DNA of 26,036 nucleotides from a virus. Of the stretch, positions 1 through 25,750 are shown piece after piece (the stretch's first letter is position 1; every line of letters begins with the position of its first letter). A program made the position numbers and the translations under genes. The notes under the pieces are model-generated. The model was not told where the DNA came from. It saw only the letters and a program-made list of their open reading frames with translations, and did no database searches. The stretch is taken from the IMG/VR virus record IMGVR_UViG_3300009079_000109, positions 1 to 26,036 of that record; one strand, given 5' to 3'.

Positions 1-30
1 AAGATAGTAAAATTAATGCATATATCCAAC
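1..30 (-). promoter_or_regulatory. Candidate promoter at window edge (GTTG-N20-TATCTT)
   Basis: On the minus strand GTTG (30-27) is followed by exactly 20 bases and then TATCTT (6-1). Sequence and spacing are identical to the three intergenic sites at 2448-2477, 24566-24595 and 25721-25750. It would drive the gene to the left, outside the window. It overlaps the short reading frame starting at 40, so one of the two readings may be wrong, or the promoter may sit inside a coding region. Confidence 0.35.
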
Positions 31-2447: not shown

Positions 2448-2477
2448 AAGATAAGAACATATTATTTAATAGACAAC
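2448..2477 (-). promoter_or_regulatory. Candidate promoter for the primase operon (GTTG-N20-TATCTT)
   Basis: Minus strand: GTTG at 2477-2474, 20 bases, TATCTT at 2453-2448, followed by GT. The G of GTTG is the last base of the upstream gene's TAG stop. The arrangement resembles the Bacteroidota vegetative promoter (TTG at -33, TAnnTTTG at -7). A transcript would start roughly a dozen bases upstream of the primase ATG. Confidence 0.55.
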
Positions 2478-2677
2478 TATATCTCGTTATTTTGTAGAAG
2501 GTCACCGATTGCAGCTGATACTGATTGGTGTAGTAGTGTTTTGTTATCTATATCTAAGTAGTCAGATAGTTTATTAGTAATAGCTTCAGCAAGTTTAAGT
2601 ACATCCTCATCAGAAAGGTCAAGTTGCTCTCTTACTACGTATTTTTTATTTTCTAATATAATTTTTGATAACTTCAT
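2477..2677 (-). CDS. Small protein with MKLSKIILE leader; candidate internal capsid protein
   Basis: 66 residues, family unknown. The first nine residues, MKLSKIILE, are identical to those of the next gene upstream (2689-2961) although five of the nine codons differ synonymously. The rest is helical and acidic with no recognised motif (LSDEDVLKLAEAITNKL, then LLHQSVSAAIGDLL). In T4, internal head proteins carry an N-terminal capsid-targeting peptide cut by the prohead protease after a hydrophobic-x-Glu motif; I-L-E at residues 7-9 fits. I infer, without proof, a mature protein starting at N10 packaged in the head. It is last in the 4127-2477 gene group; its TAG stop directly joins the primase promoter. 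Confidence 0.6.
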   Translation of the reverse strand: MKLSKIILENKKYVVREQLDLSDEDVLKLAEAITNKLSDYLDIDNKTLLHQSVSAAIGDLLQNNEI

Positions 2678-2688
2678 AATATTAAATT

Positions 2689-2961
2689 TTAACTGACATC
2701 TATTTCAAAAGAATCGGCTTCGATTCCTTTTAATTTTAAACCATCAATAACTTTTGATACTTCGTCATCGTGGTAATAAGCTCTTGTAGGTACTTCAACT
2801 CCTGTTGTCTTTTGAATAAATTCAATAGCCTTTTGGTGATCATCACCTCTTTGCTTTTCCCCATTGAAACTAATTGAATATAGTCTGGCACCATTTGTGT
2901 AGGTTAAACTAACCTTCAAATTGTCGTTCCATCCTTCAAGTATAATCTTACTTAGTTTCAT
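2689..2961 (-). CDS. Small protein with MKLSKIILE leader; candidate internal capsid protein
   Basis: 90 residues, no family recognised. It shares the nine-residue leader MKLSKIILE with the next gene and nothing else obvious. After the leader comes GWNDNLKVSLTYTNGARLYS, a likely beta-hairpin, then a charged alpha/beta region ending FEIDVS. The I-L-E at 7-9 fits the hydrophobic-x-Glu cleavage rule of T4-type prohead proteases, which would release a mature protein starting at Gly10. Its ATG overlaps the stop of the small basic gene upstream (ATGA), with AAGGA-like bases just before the ATG as a plausible ribosome site. Packaging in the head is an inference from the leader. Confidence 0.6.
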   Translation of the reverse strand: MKLSKIILEGWNDNLKVSLTYTNGARLYSISFNGEKQRGDDHQKAIEFIQKTTGVEVPTRAYYHDDEVSKVIDGLKLKGIEADSFEIDVS

Positions 2962-3095
2962 TTTCCTTGTCCTTTGTAAGCCTTTTGATAATGTTTACTA
3001 CCTTTCAGCTTTGATGTTTTAGACTTAGCATGAATGCCTGGTCTCTTTTTTTTAGGGCTACCTACGTAGTTACCTAAAGTTAATCCTTTTGCCAT
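2958..3095 (-). CDS. Very small lysine-rich protein (45 residues)
   Basis: A complete 45-codon frame: ATG at 3095, TGA at 2960-2958. The product contains 12 Lys and 1 Arg, and no Asp or Glu; its core reads SPKKKRPGIHAKSKTSKLKG, followed by SKHYQKAYKGQGK. Its start overlaps the end of the upstream gene by 16 bases and its stop overlaps the next ATG (ATGA), so it closes what would otherwise be a gap of about 120 bases in a tightly packed operon. This supports it as a real gene. From memory, similar GxHAKSK...KxYRGQG-type small basic proteins occur in other aquatic phages, but I cannot confirm it here. Strong positive charge suggests nucleic-acid binding, perhaps with packaged DNA. Confidence 0.65.
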   Translation of the reverse strand: MAKGLTLGNYVGSPKKKRPGIHAKSKTSKLKGSKHYQKAYKGQGK

Positions 3096-3370
3096 ATCTT
3101 TACAACTAAATCACCAGTTCCTTTTATCAAACGGTGATATGTCTCTTTTGGTATAAATAGTTTATCTTTTGCTAATCTACGTGGAATATCATTATCTAAC
3201 TGAAATAGCCAGTCAGTATCATGAGTACATTCAACCCAACGATCTTCTTTGTCTCTATGCCATACGAATTCAAATGAGGGAGTATCCTGAGAGAACTCTC
3301 TTATTGTATAACCGTTTTCCTTTTTTTGGGAATATGGTCTACCAGTAACCTGAGAAGTTTGATCCGCCAC
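3080..3370 (-). CDS. Conserved-looking phage protein, cupin-like beta-rich (function unknown)
   Basis: 96 residues. The segment IREFSQDTPSFEFVWHRDKE, then DTDWLFQLDNDIPRRL, then LFIPKETYHRLIKG, then DLVVKIWQKD reads like a small cupin barrel: HxD-like (HRD), an IPxxxxHR segment and a closing strand. The metal-binding pattern is incomplete, so enzymatic activity is uncertain. The frame has no ATG near its 5' end; the only workable start is GTG at 3370, which lies inside the end of the previous gene (32-base overlap). A GGA about ten bases upstream could help initiation. I do not assign a role. It lies within the group holding the MKLSKIILE proteins and may be a virion component. Confidence 0.6.
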   Translation of the reverse strand: MADQTSQVTGRPYSQKKENGYTIREFSQDTPSFEFVWHRDKEDRWVECTHDTDWLFQLDNDIPRRLAKDKLFIPKETYHRLIKGTGDLVVKIWQKD

Positions 3371-4127: not shown

Positions 4128-4897
4128 AATGTATTATTATATTTATAAATATCACCTAAATTCATAGCATGTAGGCTATTCACTATAACATTATTAAATC
4201 TAGAATCTTGTTTAAAGTGAACTATAATATGTATTCTTGCAGTATCACTATTGTTCCATACTGAATGTGTGTTAGATATATCTACTAAACATGCTCCTCC
4301 TTTAGGGTTAAAAGGTACATCACCTTTATCTTTCATTCTAAAAATACACCCTTCAGGATTGTTTAAAGCAATATTAACAGGAAACAACATACTATGGTCT
4401 CTATCCCTATGAGGTTGAATATACCCGTTAGGTTCTAGGTACATAAACCTTACTCTATAATATTCTTGAGCAGGGAAACTTTTTTTAAAGTAATCAGTAG
4501 TTACTGGGCATTTAGATGTAATTTCTTCGCACCATTTATATTCTATATCCTGCTCAGTCTTTCCTTTATGTTCTGGGTATTGATTAAAGCTTTCGGTTTT
4601 GTTCCATTCTTCACCATGTAGACAAATACTTGCCCAACCTTTATTATTATAGTCTACTGGTAGGTTATCTTCTATTCTATGATTTACAAATAAGTCTTTA
4701 AGGTTTTGTGCTTCAGAAAGCATTTCAGTATAAGGAGCTTCTGGCAGTACTAAAGGTAGGTAAGGCCATTTACTTTTATTTATAACCCAATTAACTACTT
4801 GAGAATCATTTTCAACCTCTAAGAGTTCTTTTGGACGAAAATCGAATTCAATAGGTTCGTCGTTAAAGAAGTTTTTAACGCTATTGGGTGTTTTCAT
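4124..4897 (-). CDS. Aspartyl/asparaginyl beta-hydroxylase-like 2-oxoglutarate/Fe(II) oxygenase
   Basis: 257 residues. The C-terminal half has the core of this oxygenase family: GYIQPHRDRDHSM gives the H-x-D iron ligands (H163, D165), followed by FPVNIALNNPEGC, and NTHSVWNNSDTARIHIIVHF supplies the distal histidine (H211) and the arginine (R221) expected to hold 2-oxoglutarate. Enzymes of the family hydroxylate Asp/Asn side chains; related phage and bacterial members act on unknown proteins or small molecules. The N-terminal ~80 residues match nothing I know. It overlaps the glycosyltransferase-like gene before it by 17 bases and the next gene by 4, so all are likely co-expressed. Role inferred: modification of a virion or host protein, perhaps preparing a glycosylation site. 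Confidence 0.75.
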   Translation of the reverse strand: MKTPNSVKNFFNDEPIEFDFRPKELLEVENDSQVVNWVINKSKWPYLPLVLPEAPYTEMLSEAQNLKDLFVNHRIEDNLPVDYNNKGWASICLHGEEWNKTESFNQYPEHKGKTEQDIEYKWCEEITSKCPVTTDYFKKSFPAQEYYRVRFMYLEPNGYIQPHRDRDHSMLFPVNIALNNPEGCIFRMKDKGDVPFNPKGGACLVDISNTHSVWNNSDTARIHIIVHFKQDSRFNNVIVNSLHAMNLGDIYKYNNTL

Positions 4898-6329: not shown

Positions 6330-6330
6330 T

Positions 6331-6819: not shown

Positions 6820-6837
6820 ATAATTTGGTTTCTGTCG

Positions 6838-8391
6838 CTAGAGCTTTGACTTCAGCTCATCTATTTGTAACTGCTGCTCTTTAATAGCATTTATTAATAA
6901 CGCGACTATTTTATCATAACGAACTGCCTTGTATCCGGTATCTCTATCGACTACTACTTCTGGCAACACTTTTTCGATTTCTTGAGCAATAACACCAACA
7001 TCGTGGCCGCTATGGCTAGAATCACTATTCCAATCAAATTCATATCCTCCTATTTGATTTATTTTATCTAATGCATTACTTAGAGGAGTAATGTTATCCT
7101 TTAATCTTTCATCTGAAGAGTAGTATGCAGTTATGTCTCCTGTAGCTACTATTTCTCCTGTTGCTCCTGTTGCAGCAACTCCTACTCCTAAACTATCAAA
7201 CTGTACGTCTGAGCCAGTAGTTAATCCTCCATTGAAGTTAACTGTAGATGCAGTCGTAGCAAATGATGCTGTTGTAGAGTTAGCTACTGTACCGTCTATA
7301 TTAGTAGCAAGTACATAAGAAGCTGAAGTAGCATTATCTGCTTGGTCAATACTTCCTGATATGGTTGCTTGTATAGCTGACGCTGTAAGTGCACCTATTA
7401 TGTTTGTGTTACCGGTAATAGTAGTAGCACCATCTATGTTTACACTTCCTGTAAATGTATGAGTGTCATCTGCCGAGTTACCAAACTTGGTTGAACCAGA
7501 TTCTAGTATTACGGATGAAGTAATATACTCTGTGTTAAACTCTTGAGCAGTTAAGGTTCCAGTTACGGTTAGGTCTCCTGTTAAAGTATCACTGGTATTA
7601 AGTAGATATGTTGATGCTACACTAGATGATAAACTAGTAATTTCAGTATTTATAGAGGATGAAAGAGCAGTATCAGCTGCTGTATACGCTATTGTTAATG
7701 CGGATGATGATGCATTAAGTTCAACATCGGTCGTAAAGGTACTATCTAAACTACTAGAAAAACTTTCTATATTTGTAACTCTAGTACTAAATGATCCTGA
7801 GTCGGTCTGTAGTTGAGTTATTTCTCCTTCATGTGCTGAAGCGGTTGCGTTTAGTGCATCGATAGAATTCCTTAAATTAGGTACTCCTATAACAGAAAGT
7901 GCTCCTACTATATTAGCATTACCGTCAAGGTTTAAACTGCCAGTAAATTGATGAACATCATCAGCAGAATCTCCAAATTTAGTTGAACCAGATTCAAATA
8001 AAATAGAAGACGATATTAATTCAGATTTAAACTCTTGTGCTGTTACAGTTCCACCTACTACTAAATCTCCTGTAATTCCGCTACTACCTGTAACTTTAAA
8101 AATACTATTTACTGTATCGAAAATAAAATTAGCAGATCCAGTAAGGGTGGCATCGTCACCTGTAGGGCTATCTCCTTTTTTAAACTGTATGAATCCTGTT
8201 TCACCTTTTGGAGGATCGATAGGAAATTGAATAGAAGCGGAAGGGTTAGCAGAACTGGAATCGTAATGAAATCTATGTAAAACTACTTCACTACCATCTA
8301 CAGACGCTGAGTAGAAAAACTCGGTAAAGTTTATATCTAATTCATCCTGAGTTAGGGGAGTTCCTTTTGTGCCTCTTAATGTTATTGCCAT
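6838..8391 (-). CDS. Tail fibre protein with C-terminal S74 intramolecular chaperone
   Basis: 517 residues. Residues 1-30 (PLTQDELDINFTEFFYSAS) form an attachment-type N-terminal module shared with the next S74 gene. The middle is Ser/Thr/Gly-rich beta-repeat, typical of trimeric fibres, with two related segments at residues 108-166 and 272-336. Residues about 425-517 are a peptidase S74 chaperone: SSDERLK (425-431) contains the serine and lysine of the self-cleavage dyad, followed by DVGVIAQEIEKVLPEVV and a helical end (IKEQQLQIDELKSKL) likely to form a coiled coil. In this family the domain helps trimerise the fibre and then cuts itself off. It probably binds the host surface. It is the last structural gene before the GIY-YIG gene. 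Confidence 0.88.
   Translation of the reverse strand: MAITLRGTKGTPLTQDELDINFTEFFYSASVDGSEVVLHRFHYDSSSANPSASIQFPIDPPKGETGFIQFKKGDSPTGDDATLTGSANFIFDTVNSIFKVTGSSGITGDLVVGGTVTAQEFKSELISSSILFESGSTKFGDSADDVHQFTGSLNLDGNANIVGALSVIGVPNLRNSIDALNATASAHEGEITQLQTDSGSFSTRVTNIESFSSSLDSTFTTDVELNASSSALTIAYTAADTALSSSINTEITSLSSSVASTYLLNTSDTLTGDLTVTGTLTAQEFNTEYITSSVILESGSTKFGNSADDTHTFTGSVNIDGATTITGNTNIIGALTASAIQATISGSIDQADNATSASYVLATNIDGTVANSTTASFATTASTVNFNGGLTTGSDVQFDSLGVGVAATGATGEIVATGDITAYYSSDERLKDNITPLSNALDKINQIGGYEFDWNSDSSHSGHDVGVIAQEIEKVLPEVVVDRDTGYKAVRYDKIVALLINAIKEQQLQIDELKSKL
7384..8070 (-). repeat. Internal duplicated module in the fibre protein
   Basis: Two copies of an approximately 60-residue unit, at protein residues 108-166 (bases 7894-8070) and 272-336 (bases 7384-7578). 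Both read GDLxVxGTxTAQEF, then SS followed by ESGSTKFG, SADD, FTGS and NxDG, ending with IxGAL. The intervening part is Ser-rich and unlike either. This is a lengthening duplication within a fibre shaft. Confidence 0.7.
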
Positions 8392-8392
8392 C

Positions 8393-9052
8393 TTACTTAT
8401 TTTCTAAAATAGATATTCTCTTTTCTAATTCAGCTAACTTTATATTTTGCTCTTTAACTGCTTCAATTAATACAGGTACAATACTAGCGTATGAAACACT
8501 AAGATAGCCTTTTTCATCTTCTGATACAACTTCTGGAAGTACTTTCTGTACTTGCTGAGCTATTACGCCAACTTGTCTATCAGAGATTCCTTCATTCCAA
8601 TTAAAGTATACTCCTTCAACTTTATTAATTTTTTCTAATGCGTTATCTACTACCTCTATATTGCTTTTTAATCTTTCATCTGATGATTGTACTACTGTTC
8701 CAGATGCTCTTATGCTTCCAGATACATCTAGTCTGTAGCTCAATGTTTCAGTAGATTCATCTACACCTACACCTAAACTTCCGCTTCTGTCTACATATAC
8801 TCCTTCTCTTGTTTCAATTGCAGATGAACCAGAAAATATTACAACTCTTCTATCTGATCCCTGATTTTGTAATCCTTTTACTAAGTTAAAAGTAAAAGAT
8901 CCACTGTTAACTGGAACTTCGGTAGACTCTGGGTAGTATAAAGTAACTGTCTGTCCATCTGTACTAGCTGAATAGAAGTATGCTCCAAAATTATTATCTA
9001 ATTCTGAGTATGTTAATGGTGTACCTTTTTCAGCTCTAAATGTTATAGCCAT
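8393..9052 (-). CDS. Short fibre-associated protein with S74 chaperone domain
   Basis: 219 residues; a compact relative of the downstream fibre. Residues 1-30 (PLTYSELDNNFGAYFYSAS) match the other gene's N-terminus closely, and residues 123-219 are a full S74 domain with SSDERLK (123-129), QVGVIAQQVQKVLPEVV and a C-terminal heptad-like helix (AELEKRISILENK). Between them lie only about 90 residues, so after self-cleavage the mature product would be around 120 residues. It could be a short tip, a fibre adaptor, or a chaperone supplier. Stop and start are one base apart from the neighbouring fibre gene, so both are made together. A GTTG-N20-TATCTT match occurs inside this gene at 8501-8530; it is probably fortuitous because it encodes conserved S74 residues. 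Confidence 0.82.
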   Translation of the reverse strand: MAITFRAEKGTPLTYSELDNNFGAYFYSASTDGQTVTLYYPESTEVPVNSGSFTFNLVKGLQNQGSDRRVVIFSGSSAIETREGVYVDRSGSLGVGVDESTETLSYRLDVSGSIRASGTVVQSSDERLKSNIEVVDNALEKINKVEGVYFNWNEGISDRQVGVIAQQVQKVLPEVVSEDEKGYLSVSYASIVPVLIEAVKEQNIKLAELEKRISILENK

Positions 9053-10074: not shown

Positions 10075-10077
10075 TCA

Positions 10078-11103: not shown

Positions 11104-11105
11104 AA

Positions 11106-11762
11106 TTAGTTAGATTTAGTAATAGTTACTGGAATAGTTAGTCTTGCTCCTGATCCTCGACCTATAACTGTAATAGTAGTACTAAGTGAGGTAGTTGACC
11201 CGAATAAAGTATTAACTGATGTACCTGTAAGGTTAATTGTTGTACCAATTACTGTTTTAGACACGTTTGTACCAACAGTAGTTGAAGTATTTAATCGATC
11301 AGCATCTTCTGTATTAATACCAACTCCAGTGAAGGAGTTTAATACTCTTACGTCAGCAATAGTAGCTGTATATCCGTCTGTCTCAAAAATCGAAGTTGCA
11401 CCTAAATAGTTTAGGGTTTGAGGAGTAATAGCAACTGAAGCACCTTGATTAAGAGAAATCGAAGCATAACCTAAATCTAGTACAGGTAGTTTTGAAGTAC
11501 CTCTAGGTAGAGTTGTAAGTTTATATTTCATTATTTGAGTCTCATCTGGAAAGGCTTCTAACAATGGCATGTTTTCTATTGCCTCACCGTAGAGTGCAGA
11601 ACCTGAGGGATGTGATGGATTGTATAAGGTGTAATCGATCTCGTCATCTGCAAGTGCAAATTGAGTAATCTTAAAAGAACCGTCCCCTCTAGCTAACAGC
11701 TCTCTTCCTTTTTTAGTTAGGATCGCATCCACCGTGACGATCGAATTATCTAAGTATCCCAT
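11106..11762 (-). CDS. Virion structural protein (function unknown)
   Basis: 218 residues. The N-terminal half, with VDAILTKKGRELLARGDGSF, ITQFALADDEIDYTLYNPSH and YGEAIENMPLLEAFPDE, is a pattern I recognise as recurring in structural regions of aquatic T4-like phages without an assigned function. The C-terminal half (after about residue 120) is Thr/Ser/Val/Gly-rich beta sequence with short repeats. The gene follows a 43-base gap, one of only three gaps longer than about 18 bases inside the structural block, which contains the TATTTATAATAAAC element; an A-rich tract sits directly before the ATG. Probably a tail or baseplate component. Confidence 0.7.
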   Translation of the reverse strand: MGYLDNSIVTVDAILTKKGRELLARGDGSFKITQFALADDEIDYTLYNPSHPSGSALYGEAIENMPLLEAFPDETQIMKYKLTTLPRGTSKLPVLDLGYASISLNQGASVAITPQTLNYLGATSIFETDGYTATIADVRVLNSFTGVGINTEDADRLNTSTTVGTNVSKTVIGTTINLTGTSVNTLFGSTTSLSTTITVIGRGSGARLTIPVTITKSN

Positions 11763-11774
11763 TTTGTTTTAAAT

Positions 11775-11788
11775 GTTTATTATAAATA
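11775..11788 (-). promoter_or_regulatory. Candidate late promoter element TATTTATAATAAAC
   Basis: The minus strand reads TATTTATAATAAAC, identical over 14 bases to the element before the structural gene at 22706. It lies in an intergenic gap 12 bases upstream of the ATG at 11762. T4 late promoters are TATAAATA on the non-template strand; this motif is the reverse complement followed by AATAAAC, so it may represent a diverged recognition sequence for the gp55-like factor. Inferred from recurrence and position only. Confidence 0.4.
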
Positions 11789-11805
11789 TATGTTTTTTAC
11801 CTATT

Positions 11806-12771: not shown

Positions 12772-12772
12772 T

Positions 12773-15700
12773 TTAAATAAATCTAGCGTAAATAGTTCTA
12801 CCGTTAGTATTAATATACGCCTTAGTAACAGTTAAGGTAGTAGATGTTGTTAAAGGAGAACCTCCTGATGCTACGTTATACCACCCTTCAAACACACCTG
12901 GATATGTTGCTGTTGCTTCTAAAGTAAATGTACTATACTCTTCAAAATCATTTATATATTCTATACCTGAGTTACTAACTGAAGCAGTTGTTGGGTAAGT
13001 AACGTCTACCTGGCCATTACCACTTGAGCTAATAAAGTAAGTTATATCTTCGAAATAAGCATGATATGAATTACCGTATACATTTTCATCTATATAATAA
13101 ATAGTGAGGTTATTGTTCTCTGTAATTAATGTTGACCCTGAAGTATCTGCATACCAGCCTCTAAACGCATCACCTGTACCGGTAGTAGCAGTAGCAGCAA
13201 CGTATTCGTAATCATCAAAATTAACGGTATAGTTAATAGAACTACTATTATTTCCTTCTAGTACTGGATAGCTTACTCCTACAGTACCGGATCCAGATGT
13301 ATTAAATATTAAATATTCTCCAGTATAAGAACCAGTAATTAATATTAAACATCCTGGTGGTAAAGGAGATGAAAGGTTAAAAGCTGTAATTTTATATGAA
13401 ACAGGAGGTTGGTTTATTTTTTTAAAAGAGTTATTACTCGATACCTCACCGTCTGTAGAGATAAGCAATGACCCGCTAAACTCTCCAGTAAACATTGGAG
13501 ATTCATCTGTTACATTCCTAGGTACAGATCCGATAGGAGAAATAAAATTCTTATCGTAATTTGTAGTAAAGTTAAATCTTTCTCTATTGTTGAATGCTCC
13601 TCCTTGACTACCTGTAGCTGTACCTATAGAAACTGAACCTGTTTCAGTTAAAGATTCCCAACTTGCTTCTACTTGCTTAGCTTTACTTCTAGCAAGTTTG
13701 TGAGATTTTATGATTACCCCTGTATCTACTTTAGCTCTAGCTGGGACAAAATCTTTTATTAACTTAAATAATGAACTGTCAAAAAAGTTTAATAAGCGTA
13801 TAAATCCTTTAGGAGATTTAGAATAGGATAAAGCATCATCCCATTTAAAATCAGCTTTTTCCCAATTGTCAGATATATCGTTCCAATGGTATCCATCATT
13901 TACTATATTTTTACCCATGGAAGTAAGGACCGGGTATCCTTCTTCATGAACATTTCTTGGATCACCAATATAGTCATCTATACTAAAGCTACTAGATATC
14001 TTAAAGTCTATAAATTCATCTGTTCCTCTAGATATGTTAAACCCTACCTCTACATGAGGTAAGTCGTCAGTATATTTCTTATCACTTTTTACTATAGAAA
14101 CATATCTAGATAGCGTACTACCGCTAACTATACTACCGGTATTGTCTAAACGAAGCTTATCAGATCCGCTTATTAATTGATTACTTCCGCTATTATAAAG
14201 ACTACTAGTCTGAAAATGTTCAGGACCGAAAAACTTTTCTTCTCCTGTTTTATTTCCACCGAAGGTTTTTATAGTAAGTATTTCTTTAGGTATACCGAAA
14301 CAGTTAACAAGAGCTCTCAATCCTCTTTCTGTTCCTTTTGCTTTCATTAAGAATGGAAGGTTATGATATATTCTTTTATATATCTCCTTTTCATAATTGT
14401 TTTTAGCAACTGGTTGTAAATGTTCTAAAGCCGTACTTCCACTGTTAAAAGAAGCTGATGTAGCAAGAGAGGTAGATACAATTCTCTCACTTCCAGTAGA
14501 TAGATTTTCTCCTACAAATGTAGCAAATAGATTATCTTTACTTTGATTACTATTGTATAATTTAACTCCAAAAGATTCTATTGCATCTCGTACTAAATCC
14601 TTACTTACACCGAAATTCAGTCTATGATCTGTATCATACTTATCTGAGACTGCTTTAAAATATATCCAAAGATTATCGAAATGATGAGCAATCATATGAA
14701 TAAACATCTGGTATTGCTCGTTGTTCGAATCTTCTCTTATAAAGGTAGGGATGGTATTAGTAAGTATATCAAAATTACTAACATCAAAATTATTAGCATT
14801 CACGATAGTAGATTGTAACCACGCAGAAGCAGAAGGATGTGATGAGTCGTAATTTACGTGAGGTCGCTTAGTAGTAGTTTTAGGCCATGCAGTTGAACTA
14901 CTTTCAAAGTATAAATACCTATCATAGTGATCAAAGTTGTTTATAATACCCGTAATGAGATTTTCGTAACTTTCTTTGCTTCCTGTTGTAGTAGTTAAGT
15001 AAGGATTGGAACTACCTGATGCGTCTGTATTTAAATCACCTATAGCTTCTTCATAAGATTCTATTAATTGAAGCTTATAATGAAAGTTTCTTAGTCTTTC
15101 TTCCGCTGATGAAAAATGTATAAAGTTTTCAAAAGAACTATAATCTATTGCTATTTCAGCACTTTTTTCATTAAAGAGTGAATAGAGCTCAAAATACGAA
15201 TTAGAGACTGGATAGCTAAATAATTCATTATAATTGAGATATTCTGTAGGCTGACTGCTATCGTCTGTAGAATCTATTGAAAAGTTAGGTCCTTTTAAAA
15301 AAGGTACTTTAATTACATCTTCCTGTACTACTGTAGTTATTTCGTAGAGTATATCATCTGATATGTTTTCTTCTACAAAAAACTTCTCGTTTACTAAGAT
15401 ATTAAGAGGTTCGTAAAGTTTTATAGCTACTGCCAATCCATTTTTAGTCTCCTCTAAATCTATATTAAGACCTGTACCTAATTTATTATCACCAAAATTT
15501 AAGTTAAATTCTGATATATGATTACTATTTTGTAATTTCTCTTTTAAGGTATTAGTATACTCTCTTAATTTTTTATCTGAAACTTCAGTAGATAAGGCTC
15601 TAATTTCTGTACCATCAGGAGAAATAGACTCTATAAAAAGTTTTCCTCCTACTTGAGATTCAGAATATAAGTTGTTAGTAAATCTATATAAAAGTCTAAC

Positions 15701-16003
15701 ATCTCCAGTGTCATAATTTAACTTTTTTATATCTGCTACTGGGTCAAGAGTGAGTACAGATGCCCCAGATTTTCCTGCGCTTTGTGCGTTTAAAGAAAAA
15801 CTAAAGTCGGTAAAATTAGGAATATGTTCTAACAATGTGTTATCAACACCGTACACATTTAACTCTACGTTACTACCGTTAGGTGTAAATAAACTATTAA
15901 CCTCAAAGGTACCTATAAGCTCTTTTTCTTCTACTGTTATTTTAGAAGGTTGATTAAGGCTCTGTACCTCTAGTTGCTCTATGTTGTATATAAACTTCGC
16001 CAC
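12773..16003 (-). CDS. Large tail/baseplate protein with C-terminal InlB-type repeats (possible gp7 counterpart)
   Basis: 1076 residues. Size and position, shortly after gp6, match T4 gp7 (1032 residues, baseplate wedge), but I see no clear gp7 sequence match. Around residues 550-570, FLMKAKGTERGLRALVNCFG resembles the conserved segment of phage tail protein I/wedge proteins. The N-terminal ~250 residues are beta-rich. Residues 900-1076 contain two tandem ~88-residue units with SGxGxVxVxYP, ATAT, F(R/E)GWY and a final A(Y/R)F, typical of InlB/Listeria-Bacteroides-type repeats found on surface adhesins. The start is GTG at 16003, sharing one base with the TAG stop of the preceding gene; an in-frame TAG two codons upstream and no nearby ATG leave no better choice. 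Confidence 0.72.
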   Translation of the reverse strand: MAKFIYNIEQLEVQSLNQPSKITVEEKELIGTFEVNSLFTPNGSNVELNVYGVDNTLLEHIPNFTDFSFSLNAQSAGKSGASVLTLDPVADIKKLNYDTGDVRLLYRFTNNLYSESQVGGKLFIESISPDGTEIRALSTEVSDKKLREYTNTLKEKLQNSNHISEFNLNFGDNKLGTGLNIDLEETKNGLAVAIKLYEPLNILVNEKFFVEENISDDILYEITTVVQEDVIKVPFLKGPNFSIDSTDDSSQPTEYLNYNELFSYPVSNSYFELYSLFNEKSAEIAIDYSSFENFIHFSSAEERLRNFHYKLQLIESYEEAIGDLNTDASGSSNPYLTTTTGSKESYENLITGIINNFDHYDRYLYFESSSTAWPKTTTKRPHVNYDSSHPSASAWLQSTIVNANNFDVSNFDILTNTIPTFIREDSNNEQYQMFIHMIAHHFDNLWIYFKAVSDKYDTDHRLNFGVSKDLVRDAIESFGVKLYNSNQSKDNLFATFVGENLSTGSERIVSTSLATSASFNSGSTALEHLQPVAKNNYEKEIYKRIYHNLPFLMKAKGTERGLRALVNCFGIPKEILTIKTFGGNKTGEEKFFGPEHFQTSSLYNSGSNQLISGSDKLRLDNTGSIVSGSTLSRYVSIVKSDKKYTDDLPHVEVGFNISRGTDEFIDFKISSSFSIDDYIGDPRNVHEEGYPVLTSMGKNIVNDGYHWNDISDNWEKADFKWDDALSYSKSPKGFIRLLNFFDSSLFKLIKDFVPARAKVDTGVIIKSHKLARSKAKQVEASWESLTETGSVSIGTATGSQGGAFNNRERFNFTTNYDKNFISPIGSVPRNVTDESPMFTGEFSGSLLISTDGEVSSNNSFKKINQPPVSYKITAFNLSSPLPPGCLILITGSYTGEYLIFNTSGSGTVGVSYPVLEGNNSSSINYTVNFDDYEYVAATATTGTGDAFRGWYADTSGSTLITENNNLTIYYIDENVYGNSYHAYFEDITYFISSSGNGQVDVTYPTTASVSNSGIEYINDFEEYSTFTLEATATYPGVFEGWYNVASGGSPLTTSTTLTVTKAYINTNGRTIYARFI
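12776..13306 (-). repeat. Two tandem InlB-like repeats at the C-terminus of the large tail protein
   Basis: Residues 900-990 and 991-1076. Unit 1: SGSGTVGVSYP, VNFDDYEYVAATAT, FRGWYADTSGSTL, HAYFED. Unit 2: SGNGQVDVTYP, INDFEEYSTFTLEATAT, FEGWYNVASGGSPL, YARFI. The order and spacing (G-x-V strand, ATA turn, F-x-GWY, final A-x-F) fit the divergent InlB B-repeat pattern of bacterial adhesins. The two copies are clearly homologous and quite diverged. Confidence 0.65.
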
Positions 16004-17383: not shown

Positions 17384-17384
17384 C

Positions 17385-19190: not shown

Positions 19191-19600
19191 TATTGTTCAA
19201 AATTTAAGACTACTTCATCATCTATATTAGTATCTCTAACTTTATATTTCATAGCAAATTGTACTGTATTAGAGTCTGGGATTCCGTTTGTAGTTATTTC
19301 TGTAGGTTCAACAGTAGGAAAATAATAAGCTAAATCTGCTTTTATCTGTGCATCTATCTGTTTTACTTTATCTTCGGTTAGTTGATCAAAAAGTAAGTTT
19401 CGAAGTCCGTTGCCAAAGTCTACGTTTAGGTACCTTTCTCCTCTAGAAGTTAAAAAAAAATTTATCAAGTTAGTCTTTATAGCTTCACTAGTAGTAAAAG
19501 TAGAGTTAAATACAGCTGTACCTGAGAAAGGTAGTTTAACTCCTACTGCTTTTCTAGGTTGTAAATCTAACGGGTTTATTTTTTTAACTTCAAATGCCAT
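19190..19600 (-). CDS. Baseplate wedge protein gp25
   Basis: 136 residues (T4 gp25 is 132). Pattern of the gp25/lysozyme-like baseplate family: KLPFSGTAVFNSTFTTSEAI, FFLTSRGERYLNVDFGNGLR, then LFDQLTEDKV. The R-G-E-R segment with nearby Asp/Asn is the family hallmark. The protein is structural in T4, attaching gp6 and seeding the sheath; despite the lysozyme label no wall-cleaving role is implied. It lies between a small helical protein and gp6, in the same order as in many contractile-tail clusters. Confidence 0.9.
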   Translation of the reverse strand: MAFEVKKINPLDLQPRKAVGVKLPFSGTAVFNSTFTTSEAIKTNLINFFLTSRGERYLNVDFGNGLRNLLFDQLTEDKVKQIDAQIKADLAYYFPTVEPTEITTNGIPDSNTVQFAMKYKVRDTNIDDEVVLNFEQ

Positions 19601-20007
19601 TAAGCTCCTGATCTTGTTTTATCTTTTTCTATCGATTTATCTAATATTGCTTTTGCTTTTTGAGGATCGAATCCGGGTATAGTACTTAGATCTAATCCTG
19701 CTCCACCGCCGCCTGTTATCTGCCTTTGTGCAAAGTTTGGTGCTTTCGTTGAATCGAAATTACCTATACTTCTAAAATCCTCATTGGTCATATCTGCTTT
19801 TGTAGCAGATAACATTTCATCTAAGGATTTTCTACCGGTAGCTGGAGTAGACCATTTAAGGTTGCTCCCTTTAGGTTCAGGTATAGCTTGCATTTTAGTT
19901 GGAGTAGAAGCTATTTTAACAGCTTCATTCATTACTTCTTGTAACTCCTCCTTAACAGCAGCTCTTACTTCTTCACGAATTATCTTACGTAGTTGGTCGA
20001 GTTTCAT
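19600..20007 (-). CDS. Small helical virion-associated protein (function unknown)
   Basis: 135 residues. It opens with a charged amphipathic helix, MKLDQLRKIIREEVRAAVKE, followed by EELQEVMNEAV, then a Pro/Ser/Thr-rich linker and a central LDEMLSATKADMTNEDF, and ends in IPGFDPQKAKAILDKSI. No family name can be given. The opening recalls the MKLSKIILE leader of the small proteins at 2477-2961, and I-R-E (residues 10-12) would fit a hydrophobic-x-Glu protease site, although here it could simply be a helix. The ATG is preceded by a TATTTATATAT element at 20011-20019. Confidence 0.6.
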   Translation of the reverse strand: MKLDQLRKIIREEVRAAVKEELQEVMNEAVKIASTPTKMQAIPEPKGSNLKWSTPATGRKSLDEMLSATKADMTNEDFRSIGNFDSTKAPNFAQRQITGGGGAGLDLSTIPGFDPQKAKAILDKSIEKDKTRSGA

Positions 20008-20010
20008 ATA

Positions 20011-20019
20011 TATAAATAG
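20011..20019 (-). promoter_or_regulatory. Candidate late promoter element CTATTTATA
   Basis: The minus strand reads CTATTTATA in a 17-base gap before the gene at 20007, with the ATG only three bases further on. If this is a promoter, transcription would begin at or just inside the start codon, giving a leaderless message. Shares TATTTATA with the elements at 11775-11788 and 22717-22730. Weakest of the three. Confidence 0.25.
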
Positions 20020-20024
20020 TTTAG

Positions 20025-21188: not shown

Positions 21189-22348
21189 TATTCTGTGTAT
21201 ACTTTTTTAGATAGTAACTCTTTTAAAAGGTTTCTTAACTGAGGAATAATAGGTAGTACAGCATTACTTGTTGCGATCATTTTAGCTACGAAAGCAGGAG
21301 GTGCGGGTGGTGCTGTGGCCATACCTTTTACAATAGTTTCAAATTGAGATAAATGATCGTCCATCCAAGCTATTGAAGTTTCACCTAAAAGTACAGGCTC
21401 TTTTTCTTTAAAGGCTTGTGTACCTAAATATAGTTTCTTAGCATCTAATCCTACATAATCATCAGCATCTATACCTATAGCTTTTGCGTTTAACCCAATG
21501 CCTTCGGTAGCAGATATAAAAGCACCTTCTTCTTTAGCGTTAAAATAAAGTCTACCAGAGTTAATAATAACCTGGTTACCTTTAAACTGATCTGCTTTCT
21601 CTGGCTCTTCTTCCCAAGCATCTCTTTTTTCATGAGCTTGTTTCAATTCAAAAGTATGATCAGCACCAATGTATACAGAAGATGGATCTTCATTTATATC
21701 TTCTACTATAGGATCGATAGCGTTAGGAGGTTCTTTTAATCCATTAGATAGTATGATATAAGGACTCCCGTTATTACTATCATCGGTAAATGTATTTAAA
21801 GTATGTTTAGTCCCTCCAAACCTTATTTTATTACCATGCCTGCCTTCTACTATAACGTCCCCTGGAAATATCTGCAGTGGGGAAGTAGCTTCTGATTCTT
21901 CAAAATCTTCTCCTAAATCTGCACCACTTCTAGCTTGATCTTCAAATTGAATAACATCAGGATAAGCATTGTGATGTGGGTGATTCCAGAGCGGTACAGC
22001 TTTTGTCCAGTATATTTTTTTTGCAGTAGTTACTTCTGTTCTTTCTTCTGATGGAAGAGTTTGGAGTACTACTATTTCGTTCTTAAGAGGAGGTCTAATA
22101 ACACCTCTTTCTCCGCAATATGCAAATTTTAAAGTCTGTAGTTCATCTTCTACAGAACTCATATCTAATTCACGGTAGAATACTCCATTAAGAGCTTGAG
22201 TCTTTCCTAATGTTTCATAATCAGGATGAGAGTCGTCTAATATAATATCAACAACTCTACCAAAATTAGTTCCTCCTGTTGAGCTGCCCGCGGTTGATGC
22301 GATTGCTCCTCCTCTACTGGAATTACGAAGAGTGTTTCTAATCGCCAT
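21188..22348 (-). CDS. Baseplate hub/spike protein, gp5-like, without lysozyme domain
   Basis: 386 residues. An N-terminal OB-fold-like segment (NFGRVVDIILDDSHPDYETL, later NEIVVLQTLPS) is followed by IFPGDVIVEGRHGNKIRFGG, the characteristic gp5 entry to the beta-helix. Then come strands with INSGRLYFNAKEEGAFISA, TEGIGLNAKAIGIDADDYVG and LDAKKLYLG, an intertwined beta-helix spike. A helical C-terminus follows. T4 gp5 is 575 residues and has a lysozyme domain between the OB fold and the helix; none is seen here, as in cyanophage gp5 proteins. The protein is expected to sit at the tip of the tail tube and puncture the outer membrane. It overlaps the acidic protein upstream by 11 bases. Confidence 0.82.
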   Translation of the reverse strand: MAIRNTLRNSSRGGAIASTAGSSTGGTNFGRVVDIILDDSHPDYETLGKTQALNGVFYRELDMSSVEDELQTLKFAYCGERGVIRPPLKNEIVVLQTLPSEERTEVTTAKKIYWTKAVPLWNHPHHNAYPDVIQFEDQARSGADLGEDFEESEATSPLQIFPGDVIVEGRHGNKIRFGGTKHTLNTFTDDSNNGSPYIILSNGLKEPPNAIDPIVEDINEDPSSVYIGADHTFELKQAHEKRDAWEEEPEKADQFKGNQVIINSGRLYFNAKEEGAFISATEGIGLNAKAIGIDADDYVGLDAKKLYLGTQAFKEKEPVLLGETSIAWMDDHLSQFETIVKGMATAPPAPPAFVAKMIATSNAVLPIIPQLRNLLKELLSKKVYTE

Positions 22349-22706
22349 CTTCTTCTTTATCTTTTTCTACATCTTCAACTTGCTTATCAAGAGCTTCTGA
22401 TTCCTCTAATAAATCCTGTAGATCTGAGAAGTCAAATTCTCCTCCCTCTCCTTTAGCTTGGGCTGATTCTATACGTTGTATTACCGTCGCTAACTTAATT
22501 AAATGTTCGTCATTCTTTACACCTATCTCCATATATTCCTTTATCATAGGAACAATGAGAGTTGCGTCTCCAATGTTTTCTATAAGTGGCTTTAACTCAC
22601 CGATTAGAGACTTTACTTGTACTTTAGTCTCCTTTGAATTGTCGTAAATTTCGCCGAATAGATCGGATAGAGTTTTACCGCTAAAGATTTCTTTATCTAA
22701 ACCCAT
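22338..22706 (-). CDS. Small acidic protein (function unknown)
   Basis: 122 residues. A helical domain (SGKTLSDLFGEIYDNSKETK, LIGELKPLIENIGDATLIVP, MIKEYMEIGVKNDEHLIKLA) is followed by an acidic tail (LLEESEALDKQVEDVEKDKE, then EDGD). The pattern recurs in T4-like aquatic phages with no assigned role. It is the first gene of the structural block and follows a 26-base gap with the candidate late promoter. The strongly acidic C-terminus could contact a basic partner; being first in the hub operon, it might be an assembly factor. It is unlikely to be gp33, the late coactivator, as nothing in the sequence supports that. Confidence 0.65.
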   Translation of the reverse strand: MGLDKEIFSGKTLSDLFGEIYDNSKETKVQVKSLIGELKPLIENIGDATLIVPMIKEYMEIGVKNDEHLIKLATVIQRIESAQAKGEGGEFDFSDLQDLLEESEALDKQVEDVEKDKEEDGD

Positions 22707-22716
22707 AATAAAAATA

Positions 22717-22730
22717 GTTTATTATAAATA
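22717..22730 (-). promoter_or_regulatory. Candidate late promoter element TATTTATAATAAAC
   Basis: Identical 14-base element to that at 11775-11788, again in a gap between genes and 10 bases from the following ATG (22706). It stands between the stop of the late sigma-factor gene and the first structural gene, exactly where a late promoter would be expected. A TATAAT lies just upstream (CTTATAATC). Confidence 0.4.
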
Positions 22731-22732
22731 GA

Positions 22733-23437
22733 TTATAAGAATTTATTGTTAAGAAATCCGTTATCGAAGTAGTATTGATGCTTATCTCTAAAATTATTCT
22801 TAAGTACTGTGATAACTCTAGTTAGTTGAGGGGTTTCACAGTCGGTCATTTCCCTTATGTAGATGTATAAAGCCTTTTTCTTAAAAATTTCTAAATCGTA
22901 TCTAGTCTTAAATAGAGTAAGAACAGCATCGGCTATCTTAAGTTCTTGATCTTTAGTAAAAAACTCTTCTAAACTATCGTATGTCTCCTCTACCCATTTG
23001 TCTATAAACTTACTTAAAGTTATTCCTTCAGGATGTTCACCTAAATTATCATTTTCGAAAGAATCTTCGACATCAGAGAATGATCCTATCTGTTTAAGTT
23101 TTTTATAGTTCTTATTATTGTAGTTTATTAACCAACGCTTAACTATTGTACCGAAATACGAATATGCTTTTGCACCATTATCTGGGTCAAACTTCATAAT
23201 CTTTTCTTCTAGTAGTACAGATACTACCTCATGTTTTAAATCCTCAATTTGTTCAACATCGGTATAGTAGAACTTAAAAGTATGTATAATATTTTCTGCT
23301 AACTTGTAAAAAGGGAGGTAAATATGGTCTGTAAATATTTGATTCCTGTATTCTTGGTCTGTCGATACATTATATTTCTTAATGTATTCTTCTGTCTCGC
23401 TGGTAAAGTAATTAGCTTTGCTTTTCTTCCTTGCCAT
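22733..23437 (-). CDS. Late-transcription sigma factor, T4 gp55-like
   Basis: 234 residues (T4 gp55 is 185). Residues ~60-107 match sigma-70 region 2 as found in gp55 homologues: QIEDLKHEVVSVLLEEKIMK, FDPDNGAKAYSYFGTIVKRW, then LINYNNKNYKK. This region binds core polymerase and the -10 DNA. No region 4 is visible, as in T4, where gp55 instead relies on the sliding clamp for activation. The C-terminus (DNGFLNNKFL) is hydrophobic and could serve as a clamp-binding tail; that is a guess. The gene ends 26 bases before the first structural gene, and the 5' end overlaps the small membrane-protein gene by 26 bases. Confidence 0.85.
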   Translation of the reverse strand: MARKKSKANYFTSETEEYIKKYNVSTDQEYRNQIFTDHIYLPFYKLAENIIHTFKFYYTDVEQIEDLKHEVVSVLLEEKIMKFDPDNGAKAYSYFGTIVKRWLINYNNKNYKKLKQIGSFSDVEDSFENDNLGEHPEGITLSKFIDKWVEETYDSLEEFFTKDQELKIADAVLTLFKTRYDLEIFKKKALYIYIREMTDCETPQLTRVITVLKNNFRDKHQYYFDNGFLNNKFL

Positions 23438-23720
23438 AGTTTTCGGGGAGCATATATCGGTCTAGCTCTTTTTGAATTGTTTTTAATTGTTCGAAATAGT
23501 AACCGACCTCATCATCTGACTGAAATACCCCTTTCTCGTCAAGTTTGTATAGGTGCTTTTGACCTTCTCCTACTGTATTTGATATATTTTGAAGATATGC
23601 TACTTGGTCTTTTACAACATCTTCATACTTTTCGTTTTTCAACAGTAAGTTACGTATAATATAGATTAAAAATACTAATAACGCAACTAAAACCCCAACT
23701 ATTATTTGATATACTAACAT
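23412..23720 (-). CDS. Small membrane-anchored protein (function unknown)
   Basis: 102 residues. Residues 2-25 form one strong transmembrane helix (YQIIVGVLVALLVFLIYIIR), followed by a cytosolic-looking charged domain: YEDVVKDQVAYLQNISNTV, then LDEKGVFQSDDEVGYYFEQL and IQKELDRYML. The N-terminus is short and the positive charges (R, K) lie after the helix, predicting the bulk of the protein inside the cell. The EKGxFxxDDEVGxxF motif recurs in my memory of other T4-like aquatic phages. It lies between the HD hydrolase (one-base gap) and gp55 (26-base overlap), so it is made with the transcription factor. Role unknown. Confidence 0.7.
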   Translation of the reverse strand: MLVYQIIVGVLVALLVFLIYIIRNLLLKNEKYEDVVKDQVAYLQNISNTVGEGQKHLYKLDEKGVFQSDDEVGYYFEQLKTIQKELDRYMLPENYGKEEKQS

Positions 23721-23721
23721 T

Positions 23722-24456
23722 TTATAGGTTTTTAAGCATATTTGATAGTCCTTCTGAAGATTTTACTGATTTTCCTACTGTAGAAGTGGTTTTAGGACGT
23801 TTAGGAGTCGATGTACCACCGTTTCTTTTCCAAATATCGTATTCAACCTTAGAAGCTAAGAAGTCTGCACTGTGTAGTACTGAGATAATTGATGTCTTCT
23901 GTCTTGATGACTCAACATGACTAAAGAAATAAGCTTCATTAGCTTTATCAAACACACCATCATGACATCTTATAGCCAAAAACTCCTTCTGACTAACTTT
24001 TATACCGAACTTTTGTAAAATAAACAAAGAACGGTCTGGTATAAGCATGAAATCCAAGTCTGGATTGAAAGTATACATCTCTGATAGTTTATCTTGACGC
24101 CATTTATCAGTCTGAGGTATATAGTTAGGTTGGTCACCATCTCCCATTTTACCTAGATCATGGAATAATGCGGCAAAGACTAGTTCTTCTTCGGTGTAAT
24201 CAATTGTTCCACCCATCTCTTCGTATAACCTCGACTGCTTTACCGCATACTCCACTACTCTATTTACGTGATCTACATATCCTCCGGCGAATGCATTATG
24301 ATACCAAGTCTTACCACTAGCAGGAGCCATTACGTAATTCTCTTCCATATGAGATAACATCTCTTTAATAGAATCTTTACGATCTCCTATGTAAGTATCT
24401 ATAATCTTTAAATGCTTTTGGTAGTTAGTTTGTATTTTTTCCGCCGTTAATGACAT
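23722..24456 (-). CDS. HD-domain phosphohydrolase
   Basis: 244 residues. The HD signature is complete: H63 (GGYVDHVNRV), H99-D100 (LFHDLGKMGD), H165 (RCHDGVF) and D198 (LHSADFL). These are the metal-binding positions of enzymes that cut phosphate esters, such as nucleotidases, dNTPases and cyclic-nucleotide phosphodiesterases. The Lys/Ser/Thr-rich tail after residue 210 looks disordered. Phages use HD enzymes to tune nucleotide pools or remove host signalling nucleotides; which substrate applies here cannot be read from sequence. It stands first in a three-gene operon with the late sigma factor, after the A/T-only promoter region. Confidence 0.82.
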   Translation of the reverse strand: MSLTAEKIQTNYQKHLKIIDTYIGDRKDSIKEMLSHMEENYVMAPASGKTWYHNAFAGGYVDHVNRVVEYAVKQSRLYEEMGGTIDYTEEELVFAALFHDLGKMGDGDQPNYIPQTDKWRQDKLSEMYTFNPDLDFMLIPDRSLFILQKFGIKVSQKEFLAIRCHDGVFDKANEAYFFSHVESSRQKTSIISVLHSADFLASKVEYDIWKRNGGTSTPKRPKTTSTVGKSVKSSEGLSNMLKNL

Positions 24457-24594
24457 ATTAGATTAATTTTATAGTTAATATATTATTATTATTTTTATCT
24501 ATATATATTTATATACTTATATATTATTAATAATTATTTTATATATATATTTTATAATATAAATTAAGATAATGATTATTTATCAAAGAATCAA
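24457..24594. other. Extremely A/T-rich spacer with promoter elements
   Basis: A 138-base gap, the longest in the window. Between 24481 and 24560 only two of 80 bases are G or C. It holds a GTTG-N20-TATCTT match at its upstream end (24566-24595) and a minus-strand TATAAATA (24513-24506), the T4 late consensus, 50 bases before the HD gene's ATG. No hairpin terminator and no reading frame are seen. It may be a strong promoter region, a DNA-melting element, or both. Confidence 0.5.
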
Positions 24595-24595
24595 C
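24566..24595 (-). promoter_or_regulatory. Candidate promoter before the HD/gp55 operon (GTTG-N20-TATCTT)
   Basis: Minus strand: GTTG at 24595-24592, 20 bases, TATCTT at 24571-24566. The G is the last base of the lipoprotein's TAG stop, the same arrangement as before the primase gene. The ATG is about 110 bases downstream, leaving a long A/T leader. Confidence 0.5.
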
Positions 24596-25212
24596 TATTC
24601 TACAATAAATTTTTGAGAAAAGTCATCTTTAGTAAGTGATTCCATTCCTGCTTCCCAAAAAACCTTCATATAAACAGTAATAGTATCGCCTTTAATAGTA
24701 GGAGGAAAAGGTCCAAGAATACGTCTAGTAAAAAGAGAACCGTTTTCTTCTGAAAAGTAAATATTAGTATTCTGAGCTATATTAATCTCTGTTCCTGCAT
24801 ATTGAGGAAGGTTAATATCAACAGTAGAAGATGGAATAGGTACCCATGATGAAGTATAATTTCCAAAAAACGGATTATATAGTGGTTGCTGTATGACAAG
24901 ATCTTTACCTAAAATCCAAGATGTATCACTATCAAATTTAGCTTCCACTACTGATCTACCATTGTACCTGTAGCTATCATCTACCGGAGTAGCCTCTACA
25001 TCAATATAGAACCACGGTAAATAATCTCCATCCCAATTTAACTCTAGATGGTAAAATCCATTAGCATCTGCTTCAACAGGAAAAATCATTTGAGCATCAC
25101 AACCGCCGGGGCAGGTTTCCGGGGCGATAGGGTCTATAGTACAAGATGCAAGAGCGAAGCTCGCCGCGCAAACGCGCGCAAGTCGCACCGCGATATATCT
25201 AAGCTTCTTCAT
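24595..25212 (-). CDS. Phage-encoded lipoprotein with GC-rich signal region
   Basis: 205 residues. The N-terminus MKKLRYIAVRLARVCAASFA followed by LASC is a lipoprotein signal peptide with lipobox L-A-S-C (Cys24 lipidated). The +2 residue is Thr, which suggests the outer membrane. The mature part is beta-rich (FYHLELNWDGDYLPWFYIDV; FFGNYTSSWVPIPSSTVDIN; RRILGPFPPTIKGDTITVYM) with no recognised family. Bases 25101-25200, coding the signal peptide and first mature residues, are 60% GC in a genome that is about one-third GC, with GCG, CGC, GCC and CCG codons. I chose the ATG at 25212 over the one at 25236 because it gives a canonical signal peptide; it overlaps the GIY-YIG gene by 14 bases. A role in superinfection exclusion or receptor masking is possible. 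Confidence 0.72.
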   Translation of the reverse strand: MKKLRYIAVRLARVCAASFALASCTIDPIAPETCPGGCDAQMIFPVEADANGFYHLELNWDGDYLPWFYIDVEATPVDDSYRYNGRSVVEAKFDSDTSWILGKDLVIQQPLYNPFFGNYTSSWVPIPSSTVDINLPQYAGTEINIAQNTNIYFSEENGSLFTRRILGPFPPTIKGDTITVYMKVFWEAGMESLTKDDFSQKFIVE

Positions 25213-25696
25213 TAGTATCCATTTTATAAGGTTCACCTATTCTTTCTACTACCGCCTTAGCTTCTTCAACAGATATATTAAAGAACTCTTTCTTATTATT
25301 TACCCTAAAGCCGTTATCTTGTAAGTACTTATGTACTTGCTTTTCTACATCATGAGCATTGAAGCAAGGTAAAGCCCATTCTACAACGAAGTCTTGGGCT
25401 ACACCCGTGGCAGAGTTTATCTGCTTTACTCTCTCAGAAGGTTTATTCTTAGTAAAGCCTATCTTACATAGACCAGGCATTGTAGTATTAGTTAATACGT
25501 ATACCCATTGACAGCCAGTAACACCTTTTGGTATCTGGATCTTCTTAGGTCTATTAGTATAGTAAGTAACATCATCCCATCCATCTCCTTTATCACTGGT
25601 AGTAAGAGTAAAGTAAGAAGCATCAGTATCTGTCTGATCTTCAGAGACTTTGATTAGACCTTGAGCATATTCTTCGGTAATTCTTTTTATTCCCAT
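25199..25696 (-). CDS. GIY-YIG protein of T5orf172/MUG113 type
   Basis: 165 residues. The C-terminal ~100 residues carry the family pattern: QWVYVLTNTTMPGLCKIGFT (GIY at 65-68, YIG variant K-I-G at 78-80), PSERVKQINSATGV (R89), ALPCFNAHDVEKQVHKYLQ, then KKEFFNISVEEA (E137 expected catalytic). The first ~60 residues are an extra N-terminal region without a match. Such proteins are widespread in phages, where they are thought to cut or bind DNA; the specific target is unknown. A Bacteroidota-like promoter and a weak AAAGG lie before the ATG at 25696. Its end overlaps the lipoprotein start. Confidence 0.78.
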   Translation of the reverse strand: MGIKRITEEYAQGLIKVSEDQTDTDASYFTLTTSDKGDGWDDVTYYTNRPKKIQIPKGVTGCQWVYVLTNTTMPGLCKIGFTKNKPSERVKQINSATGVAQDFVVEWALPCFNAHDVEKQVHKYLQDNGFRVNNKKEFFNISVEEAKAVVERIGEPYKMDTNEEA

Positions 25697-25720
25697 AACC
25701 TTTATTTTTAATTATACTCT

Positions 25721-25750
25721 AAGATACGAACTTTATTTCAGTTAGCCAAC
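25721..25750 (-). promoter_or_regulatory. Candidate promoter before the GIY-YIG/lipoprotein pair (GTTG-N20-TATCTT)
   Basis: Minus strand: GTTG at 25750-25747, 20 bases, TATCTT at 25726-25721, followed by AG. It lies in a 61-base gap between the small gene ending at 25758 and the ATG at 25696. A separate TATAAT sits a few bases downstream without a matching -35, so the GTTG/TATCTT pair is preferred. Confidence 0.55.

Follow-up and report, generated by a model that had tools for sequence, protein, structure and literature searches.

Here, we describe a repeated bipartite element, GTTG followed after exactly 20 bases by TATCTT, in a 26,036-base stretch of viral DNA (IMG/VR record IMGVR_UViG_3300009079_000109, positions 1 to 26,036; hereafter, the window) and in the genomes of related phages. 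The element is very probably a promoter, and we favor, with reasonable though far from complete confidence, its identification as the early promoter of Immutovirus-like phages of Bacteroidota, read by the host RNA polymerase with a primary, sigma-ABfr-type factor. Sequence comparison establishes a rigid, strand-specific, two-box element that precedes early and replication genes and is set apart from a late-type box. A previous interpretation derived from the letters of the window (hereafter, the sequence-only reading) had proposed a phage promoter of an early or middle class, and this proposal is strongly supported by strand, spacing, position relative to start codons, recurrence upstream of orthologous genes, and separation from the late-type box.

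The motif in the window

Five exact matches to GTTG-N20-TATCTT, all on the minus strand, were found precisely where the sequence-only reading had placed them (30-1, 2477-2448, 8530-8501, 24595-24566, and 25750-25721). The expectation is 0.17 over both strands, and 0 of 100 shuffles of the window sequence contained five matches, bearing out the estimate of far less than one occurrence by chance. In the window, the gene-sized open reading frames (ORFs) run along the minus strand, and therefore, the motif points in the direction of transcription. Widening the spacer to N17-23 added one match, at N17, and a scan of all spacings from 8 to 35 yielded nothing apart from this match and those at N20. 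TATCTT by itself was rejected as a signal because its count is at expectation (45 in the window vs 46 expected); the signal is thus the GTTG/TATCTT pair plus its spacing. The original list of sites, correct for these five, overlooked a sixth, GTTG-N20-TATATT at 23687-23658. A further position weight matrix (PWM) match, at 3106-3077 (GTTG-N20-TAACTT), extends across the start of a gene and probably reflects chance. At 2477 and 24595, as previously noticed and as the ORF ends confirm, the stop codon of the upstream gene ends with the G of GTTG, and the same overlap recurs in the Flavobacterium phage vB_FspM_immuto (hereafter, immuto) at 32326, 60930, 62172, and 74992. The sites and the genes that follow them are:

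1..30, minus strand: putative early promoter at the window edge, directly after the exonuclease gene 37-819; the gene served would lie outside the window
2448..2477, minus strand: GTTG-N20-TATCTT, a putative early promoter separated by 21 bases from the downstream DNA primase gene 1503-2426
1503..2426, minus strand: DNA primase gene (PHROG_47 DNA primase, E 8.5e-43)
8501..8530, minus strand: promoter-like motif inside the S74 tail-fiber gene, 109 bases upstream of gene 6838-8391
23658..23687, minus strand: GTTG-N20-TATATT, the sixth site, which lies within gene 23412-23720, 220 bases ahead of a sigma-like gene
24566..24595, minus strand: GTTG-N20-TATCTT, a putative early promoter separated by 109 bases from the downstream HD phosphohydrolase gene 23722-24456
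23722..24456, minus strand: HD-domain phosphohydrolase gene (PHROG_28876 metal-dependent phosphohydrolase, E 1.5e-13; Pfam HD)
25721..25750, minus strand: GTTG-N20-TATCTT, a putative early promoter separated by 24 bases from the downstream T5orf172-domain gene 25199-25696
25199..25696, minus strand: T5orf172-domain (GIY-YIG-like) gene (Pfam T5orf172, E 7e-20)

An unbiased dyad search of the window alone would not rank the motif first; the proof rests on related genomes.

Conservation of the motif in related phages

Judged from its sequence, the window is a piece of an Immutovirus-like myovirus, the record itself being a fragment of 26,036 bases. The protein encoded at 12773-16003, in the tail region, is about 40% identical to its counterpart in immuto, the nearest isolate, a 160 kb Immutovirus whose host is Flavobacterium sp. 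LMO8; the earlier hint at a Bacteroidota host is thus strongly supported. The baseplate-wedge-like protein of the window has matches in hundreds of IMG/VR contigs, with identity up to 66%.

In seven pooled records of relatives (792,042 bases), GTTG-N-TATMTT was present 193 times at spacing 20, compared with 0 to 6 times at every other spacing and 9 times on the reverse strand. The base before TTG is ranked G>C>T, with 43 occurrences of CTTG, 20 of TTTG, and none of ATTG, and the hexamers located 20 bases after GTTG are TATATT (121), TATCTT (72), and TAACTT (7), each of which occurs about once at other spacings; the motif can accordingly be written [G>C>T]TTG-N20-TATMTT. On the coding strand of immuto, GTTG-N20-TANNTT occurs 44-46 times, against about 3 at each other spacing, and a relative of 161,982 bases has 40 forward matches vs 1 reverse match. 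In three relatives, the motif came out first or close to it when dyads were searched without prior choice of boxes. The consensus is aGTTGc-N15-TTCn-TATMTT-wAggTAT, and the logo of 209 sites additionally shows A enrichment at -18 to -15 and -4 to -1, counted from GTTG.

The motif is concentrated immediately upstream of genes, at a median distance of 26-30 bases from the ATG. In immuto, intergenic sequence makes up 4.6% of the genome and holds 32 of 39 strict sites, an 89-fold excess in density, and 36 matches are ORF-free vs 16 in coding sequence even though only 7,832 of 160,000 bases are ORF-free. The sequence-only reading would have been refuted by equal frequency inside genes and on the opposite strand; the counts in immuto and in the seven records, respectively, do not refute it. 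Between 60.9 and 76.2 kb of immuto lies an array in which almost all small genes are each preceded by a copy of the motif, situated about 31 bases ahead of the gene start. At immuto positions 106172-106201, GTTG-N20-TAACTTTAGGTA occupies the place equivalent to the window edge: the exonuclease gene precedes it, and the next gene begins 20 bases further on.

The extended N20 form of the motif, 19 bases long, was detected in more than 120 IMG/VR stretches, whereas an N21 control form with an equal number of fixed bases had 2 matches. Of 12 extended-motif records in which no sigma-like gene was visible, 10 contain the immuto terminase or DNA polymerase, and therefore, the motif is a property of the Immutovirus-like phage group. 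The distant relative Microcystis phage Mel-JY01 (37% identity in the sigma-like protein, 51% in the terminase) showed no clear enrichment of the early motif, with 5 forward vs 1 reverse matches, at most a weak excess. In the first 50 kb of Tenacibaculum phage pT24, which is not a close relative, no excess was found.

Genes downstream of the motif

The genes preceded by the motif include the primase, the HD hydrolase, and arrays of small genes, and it is this gene content (small genes, replication genes, and a sigma-like gene) that would place the promoters in an early, that is, immediate-early or delayed-early, class. Orthologs were counted after removal of duplicates. The motif was found upstream of 45 of 62 HD hydrolase orthologs (window site PWM score 24.2) and 6 of 14 orthologs of the T5orf172 gene, for which the window site scores 32.6 and has TTC-G before TATCTT and AGAGTAT after it. 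All three primase orthologs have [GC]TTG-N20-TATCTT 26 bases upstream (window site score 15.9). The sigma-like gene has the motif within 300 bases upstream in 43 of 76 orthologs, at two different places in different lineages, and it is this recurrence that supports the sixth window site, inside gene 23412-23720. The codons under that site rank 9 and 14 among 99 columns for constraint, a suggestive signal that is real but not exceptional.

Upstream of the orthologs of gp6, gp25, g19600, g22338, g21188, g20025, g12773, and other genes, the early motif was never found. The exceptions among structural genes are g16003 (20 of 52) and g11106 (3 of 27). The site counted for g16003, which is present in relatives only and encodes LQPERYYR, was rejected as a conserved promoter: the amino acids are conserved without codon constraint, so that it is a coding coincidence. 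This site, found in many relatives, is what speaks for chance or shared coding sequence as the source of the motif. For the class as a whole, that explanation is refuted, and its probability is next to nil, given the 193 matches vs about 3 in relatives and the small number expected in the window.

A constrained site within the tail-fiber gene

The match at 8501..8530 looks incidental, lying within the S74 tail-fiber gene, and yet is kept in 16 of 17 orthologs. Codon constraint was assessed by comparing the frequency of the commonest codon for each residue with the frequency of that codon in the set. Of the 128 residue columns, those with the strongest constraint are G188 (GGC in 15 of 16; pool 10%), L190 (CTT in 16 of 17; pool 17%), and V181 (GTT in 16 of 17; pool 34%), and Y189 (TAT in 16 of 16) is the fifth. 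All four codons are within GTTG...GGCTATCTT; a stretch of 10 codons at the motif comes first among 216 in constraint, and the codons between the two boxes vary more freely. The orthologs are related and not independent, so that p-values serve for ranking only; the contrast within the gene stands. Because the codons of the motif stand out within the gene, the match is probably functional and under constraint at the DNA level. GGC is a rare glycine codon in the S74 gene set.

A hairpin is another feature of some sites. Hairpins across GTTG are mildly more stable than those of shuffled sequences (mean z -0.3 to -1.0), reaching -6 kcal/mol or lower at 48 of 203 sites. At some immuto sites, the upstream box lies in an arm of a terminator-like hairpin, so that an upstream terminator and a downstream promoter appear fused; as a general rule, such fusion was rejected, the hairpins being just mildly above shuffles. 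Near-perfect spacer hairpins occur at immuto L087:37294-37323, L086:7961-7990, and L086:10242-10271, for example, GTTGCCTCTTCGGAGGCAATTT.

The hairpins in some spacers and the one constrained site within coding sequence would fit a binding site or RNA element, such as a repressor operator or a signal for replication or processing. Such a role is very improbable, considering that the orientation follows transcription, that the distance to the start codon is fixed, that A-tracts and a TAHHTT core are present, and that the motif and the late-type box exclude each other.

A putative second, late-type promoter class and a gp55-like protein

Genes of the structural block carry a different, T4-late-like box, CTATTTATA, written (C/A)TATTTAT or CTATTTAT(A), with no TTG upstream:

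22724..22731, minus strand: late-type box CTATTTAT, followed after 17 bases by gene 22338-22706 and found with 81 of 82 distinct orthologs of that gene
20012..20019, minus strand: late-type box CTATTTAT, followed after 4 bases by gene 19600-20007 and found with 74 of 78 distinct orthologs of that gene
11782..11789, minus strand: late-type box ATATTTAT, followed after 19 bases by gene 11106-11762; a late-type box was found with 24 of 27 distinct orthologs of that gene
4145-4152: late-type box (C/A)TATTTAT, preceding a structural gene
22733..23437, minus strand: gene for a putative gp55-like late sigma protein of 234 amino acids, with the sigma region 2 signature KFDPxxGAKAYSYFGTIVKRWLINYNNK

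The late-type box precedes 89-99% of the orthologs of the three best-sampled genes (and 3 of 3 g3339 orthologs) and almost no others; across the upstream regions of orthologs, it and the early motif are mutually exclusive. In the early block of immuto (60-78 kb), 18 gaps contain the early motif and none the late box. By its form, the late-type box would be a second promoter class of the kind expected of a T4-type late promoter, which consists of a TATA-like box without a -35 element (PMC2988020). An eight-base TATA-like box without -35 before structural genes, in phages that encode a protein with a predicted gp55-like fold, would be shared with T4; the box itself differs (CTATTTATA here, TATAAATA in T4), and the protein of this phage group is recognized just through weak profile and fold matches.

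This protein has no Pfam match at E 0.001 and is unannotated, but is among the best-conserved proteins of the group (60-82% identity), with the sigma region 2 signature conserved across 37 aligned relatives. PHROG_234 (late sigma factor) matches weakly in 22 of the 37 (best E 0.012). An AlphaFold model of moderate confidence (pLDDT 71) has T4 gp55 (7d7c_F) as its top VIA-align match (Z 9.3 over 118 residues), and nearly all the top rows are sigma factors, although such Z values can be unspecific for helical proteins.

Comparison with host promoters and candidate readers

The sigma-ABfr promoters of F. johnsoniae, B. fragilis, and B. thetaiotaomicron consist of a -33 TTTG and a -7 TAHHTTTG, transcription beginning 4-5 bases past the -7 element, and in F. 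johnsoniae, T-12, A-11, T-8, T-7, T-6, and G-5 of TAHHTTTG are nearly invariant (PMC6847099). The phage motif shares the upstream TTG core, a similar separation of the boxes, and the -7 core (T-12, A-11, no G at -10 and -9, T-8, and T-7), such that its TAHHTT is the F. johnsoniae core (PMC6847099). The phage form differs in having G (or C) before TTG, with A excluded, in its single spacing of 20, and in the TTC before and the conserved wAggTAT after the -7 box. The host-type TAHHTTTG does not occur in immuto gaps and is rare in other relatives; a host-type TTG..TAHHTTTG was rejected as a phage promoter as it is not enriched at any spacing. In twelve Flavobacteriia genomes (2.6-5 Mb), which represent Flavobacteriia in general and may not include the host of the window phage, the phage motif is at background, with 4-23 matches per strand vs 4-29 for the reversed control. 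Together with the absence of TAHHTTTG from immuto gaps, this argues for a phage-optimized promoter.

The primary sigma factor of the host, which the sequence-only reading had suggested as the reader, is plausible in this role, to judge from these likenesses. A-tracts are the kind of sequence contacted by the alpha subunit of cellular polymerases, and those upstream of the motif would suggest that a cellular polymerase is at work; a search for a T7-type polymerase, run without a positive control, gave no match over the cut-off. Under the proposed mechanism, host polymerase with the primary sigma-ABfr-type factor would bind GTTG at about -36 to -33 and open the DNA at TATMTT (-12 to -7), with transcription beginning 5-7 bases beyond this box. 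Strengthened by the TTC, the discriminator, and the upstream A-tracts, the element would be an over-strong form that outcompetes host promoters in the manner of T4 early promoters. Early products would include the gp55-like sigma, whose own gene is preceded by the early motif in most relatives and which would then direct the same polymerase to the CTATTTATA boxes of structural genes. T4 early promoters, which are read by host sigma-70 with no viral factor (PMC6024815), are likewise numerous in the genome, precede early genes, are conserved beyond -35 and -10, including an A/T-rich upstream part, and are paired with a gp55-type late system; in the present group, by contrast, boxes and spacing would be adapted to a Bacteroidota polymerase, and recognition by the host is a proposal.

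Several observations weigh against early promoters read by the primary sigma factor. Host promoters have variable spacing and a weak -33 element (PMC7366714, PMC6847099): spacing between the two boxes varies in B. thetaiotaomicron (PMC7366714), and no clear -33 element is visible genome-wide in F. johnsoniae (PMC6847099). In the phage motif, -6 is relaxed (T in 68%), and -5 is A in 82% vs the near-invariant G of the host. The background counts in Flavobacteriia imply that no host regulon reads the exact form. The site in the tail-fiber gene indicates that the motif class is not purely early, and 14 of 60 immuto gaps of at least 50 bases, some at tRNA genes, contain neither the early motif nor the late box.

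The rigid spacing, the strong upstream element unmatched in host promoters, and the host-like TAHHTT core would also be explained if these were middle promoters formed by sigma appropriation, with a phage protein bound to GTTG at a fixed distance and the host sigma factor reading TATMTT only. T4 middle promoters (MotA/AsiA) similarly combine a phage-specific upstream element with a sigma-read -10 at a fixed distance, although box and spacing differ. We consider this unlikely: MotA and AsiA had no match over the cut-off in six records of the phage group (divergent proteins could escape, and one record gave a sub-threshold AsiA match, E 0.018), and the motif array stands before the small early-type genes themselves. 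With TAHHTTTG missing from immuto gaps, no other class for immediate-early genes was seen, and a promoter dependent on sigma appropriation could not serve these genes.

Another sigma factor that demands strict -33/-10 spacing, either a host alternative or a phage factor that is unrecognized or delivered with the virion, would account for the strict spacing and the missing G-5, which are unlike the primary sigma, and Bacteroidota are rich in extracytoplasmic function (ECF) factors (PMC7366714). This is quite improbable, given that eleven phage records yielded no match over the cut-off to TIGR02937-type sigma-70/ECF factors, that no host regulon has the form of the motif, and that the TAHHTT core matches the one read by the primary sigma.

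A more tentative and somewhat doubtful idea is that Immutovirus-like phages rely on a type of promoter that is not in use in the host genome. A phage factor would re-aim the host polymerase to the rigid GTTG, or the Bacteroidota primary sigma would have a latent preference at -33, masked by variable spacing in host promoters, that the phage exploits; such promoters would also be concealed within structural genes, at a price in codon freedom.

Separately, the 18.6-37 kb region of immuto is annotated with QueC/D/E, FolE, QueF, and DpdA, a set for 7-deazaguanine DNA modification; modified G could affect the reading of GTTG.

Implications and additional observations

Bacteroidota promoters are poorly understood, and hundreds of near-identical promoters of fixed geometry would provide a natural consensus for how the Bacteroidota polymerase reads at -33 and -5, as well as candidate strong promoters for Flavobacterium genetics. 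The motif also offers a simple sequence signature for linking uncultured phages to Bacteroidota hosts, and the two putative classes, early and late, give a transcription map for a phage family that is widespread and almost unstudied, with only one isolated species in the collection searched. No account of Immutovirus promoters was found in the open literature, subscription papers being mostly outside the search.

Two further periodicities were observed in relatives: AGGA-N17-AGGA in one record (G019; 94 vs 20 expected) and CAGG-N21-AGGA in immuto (44 vs 10 expected).

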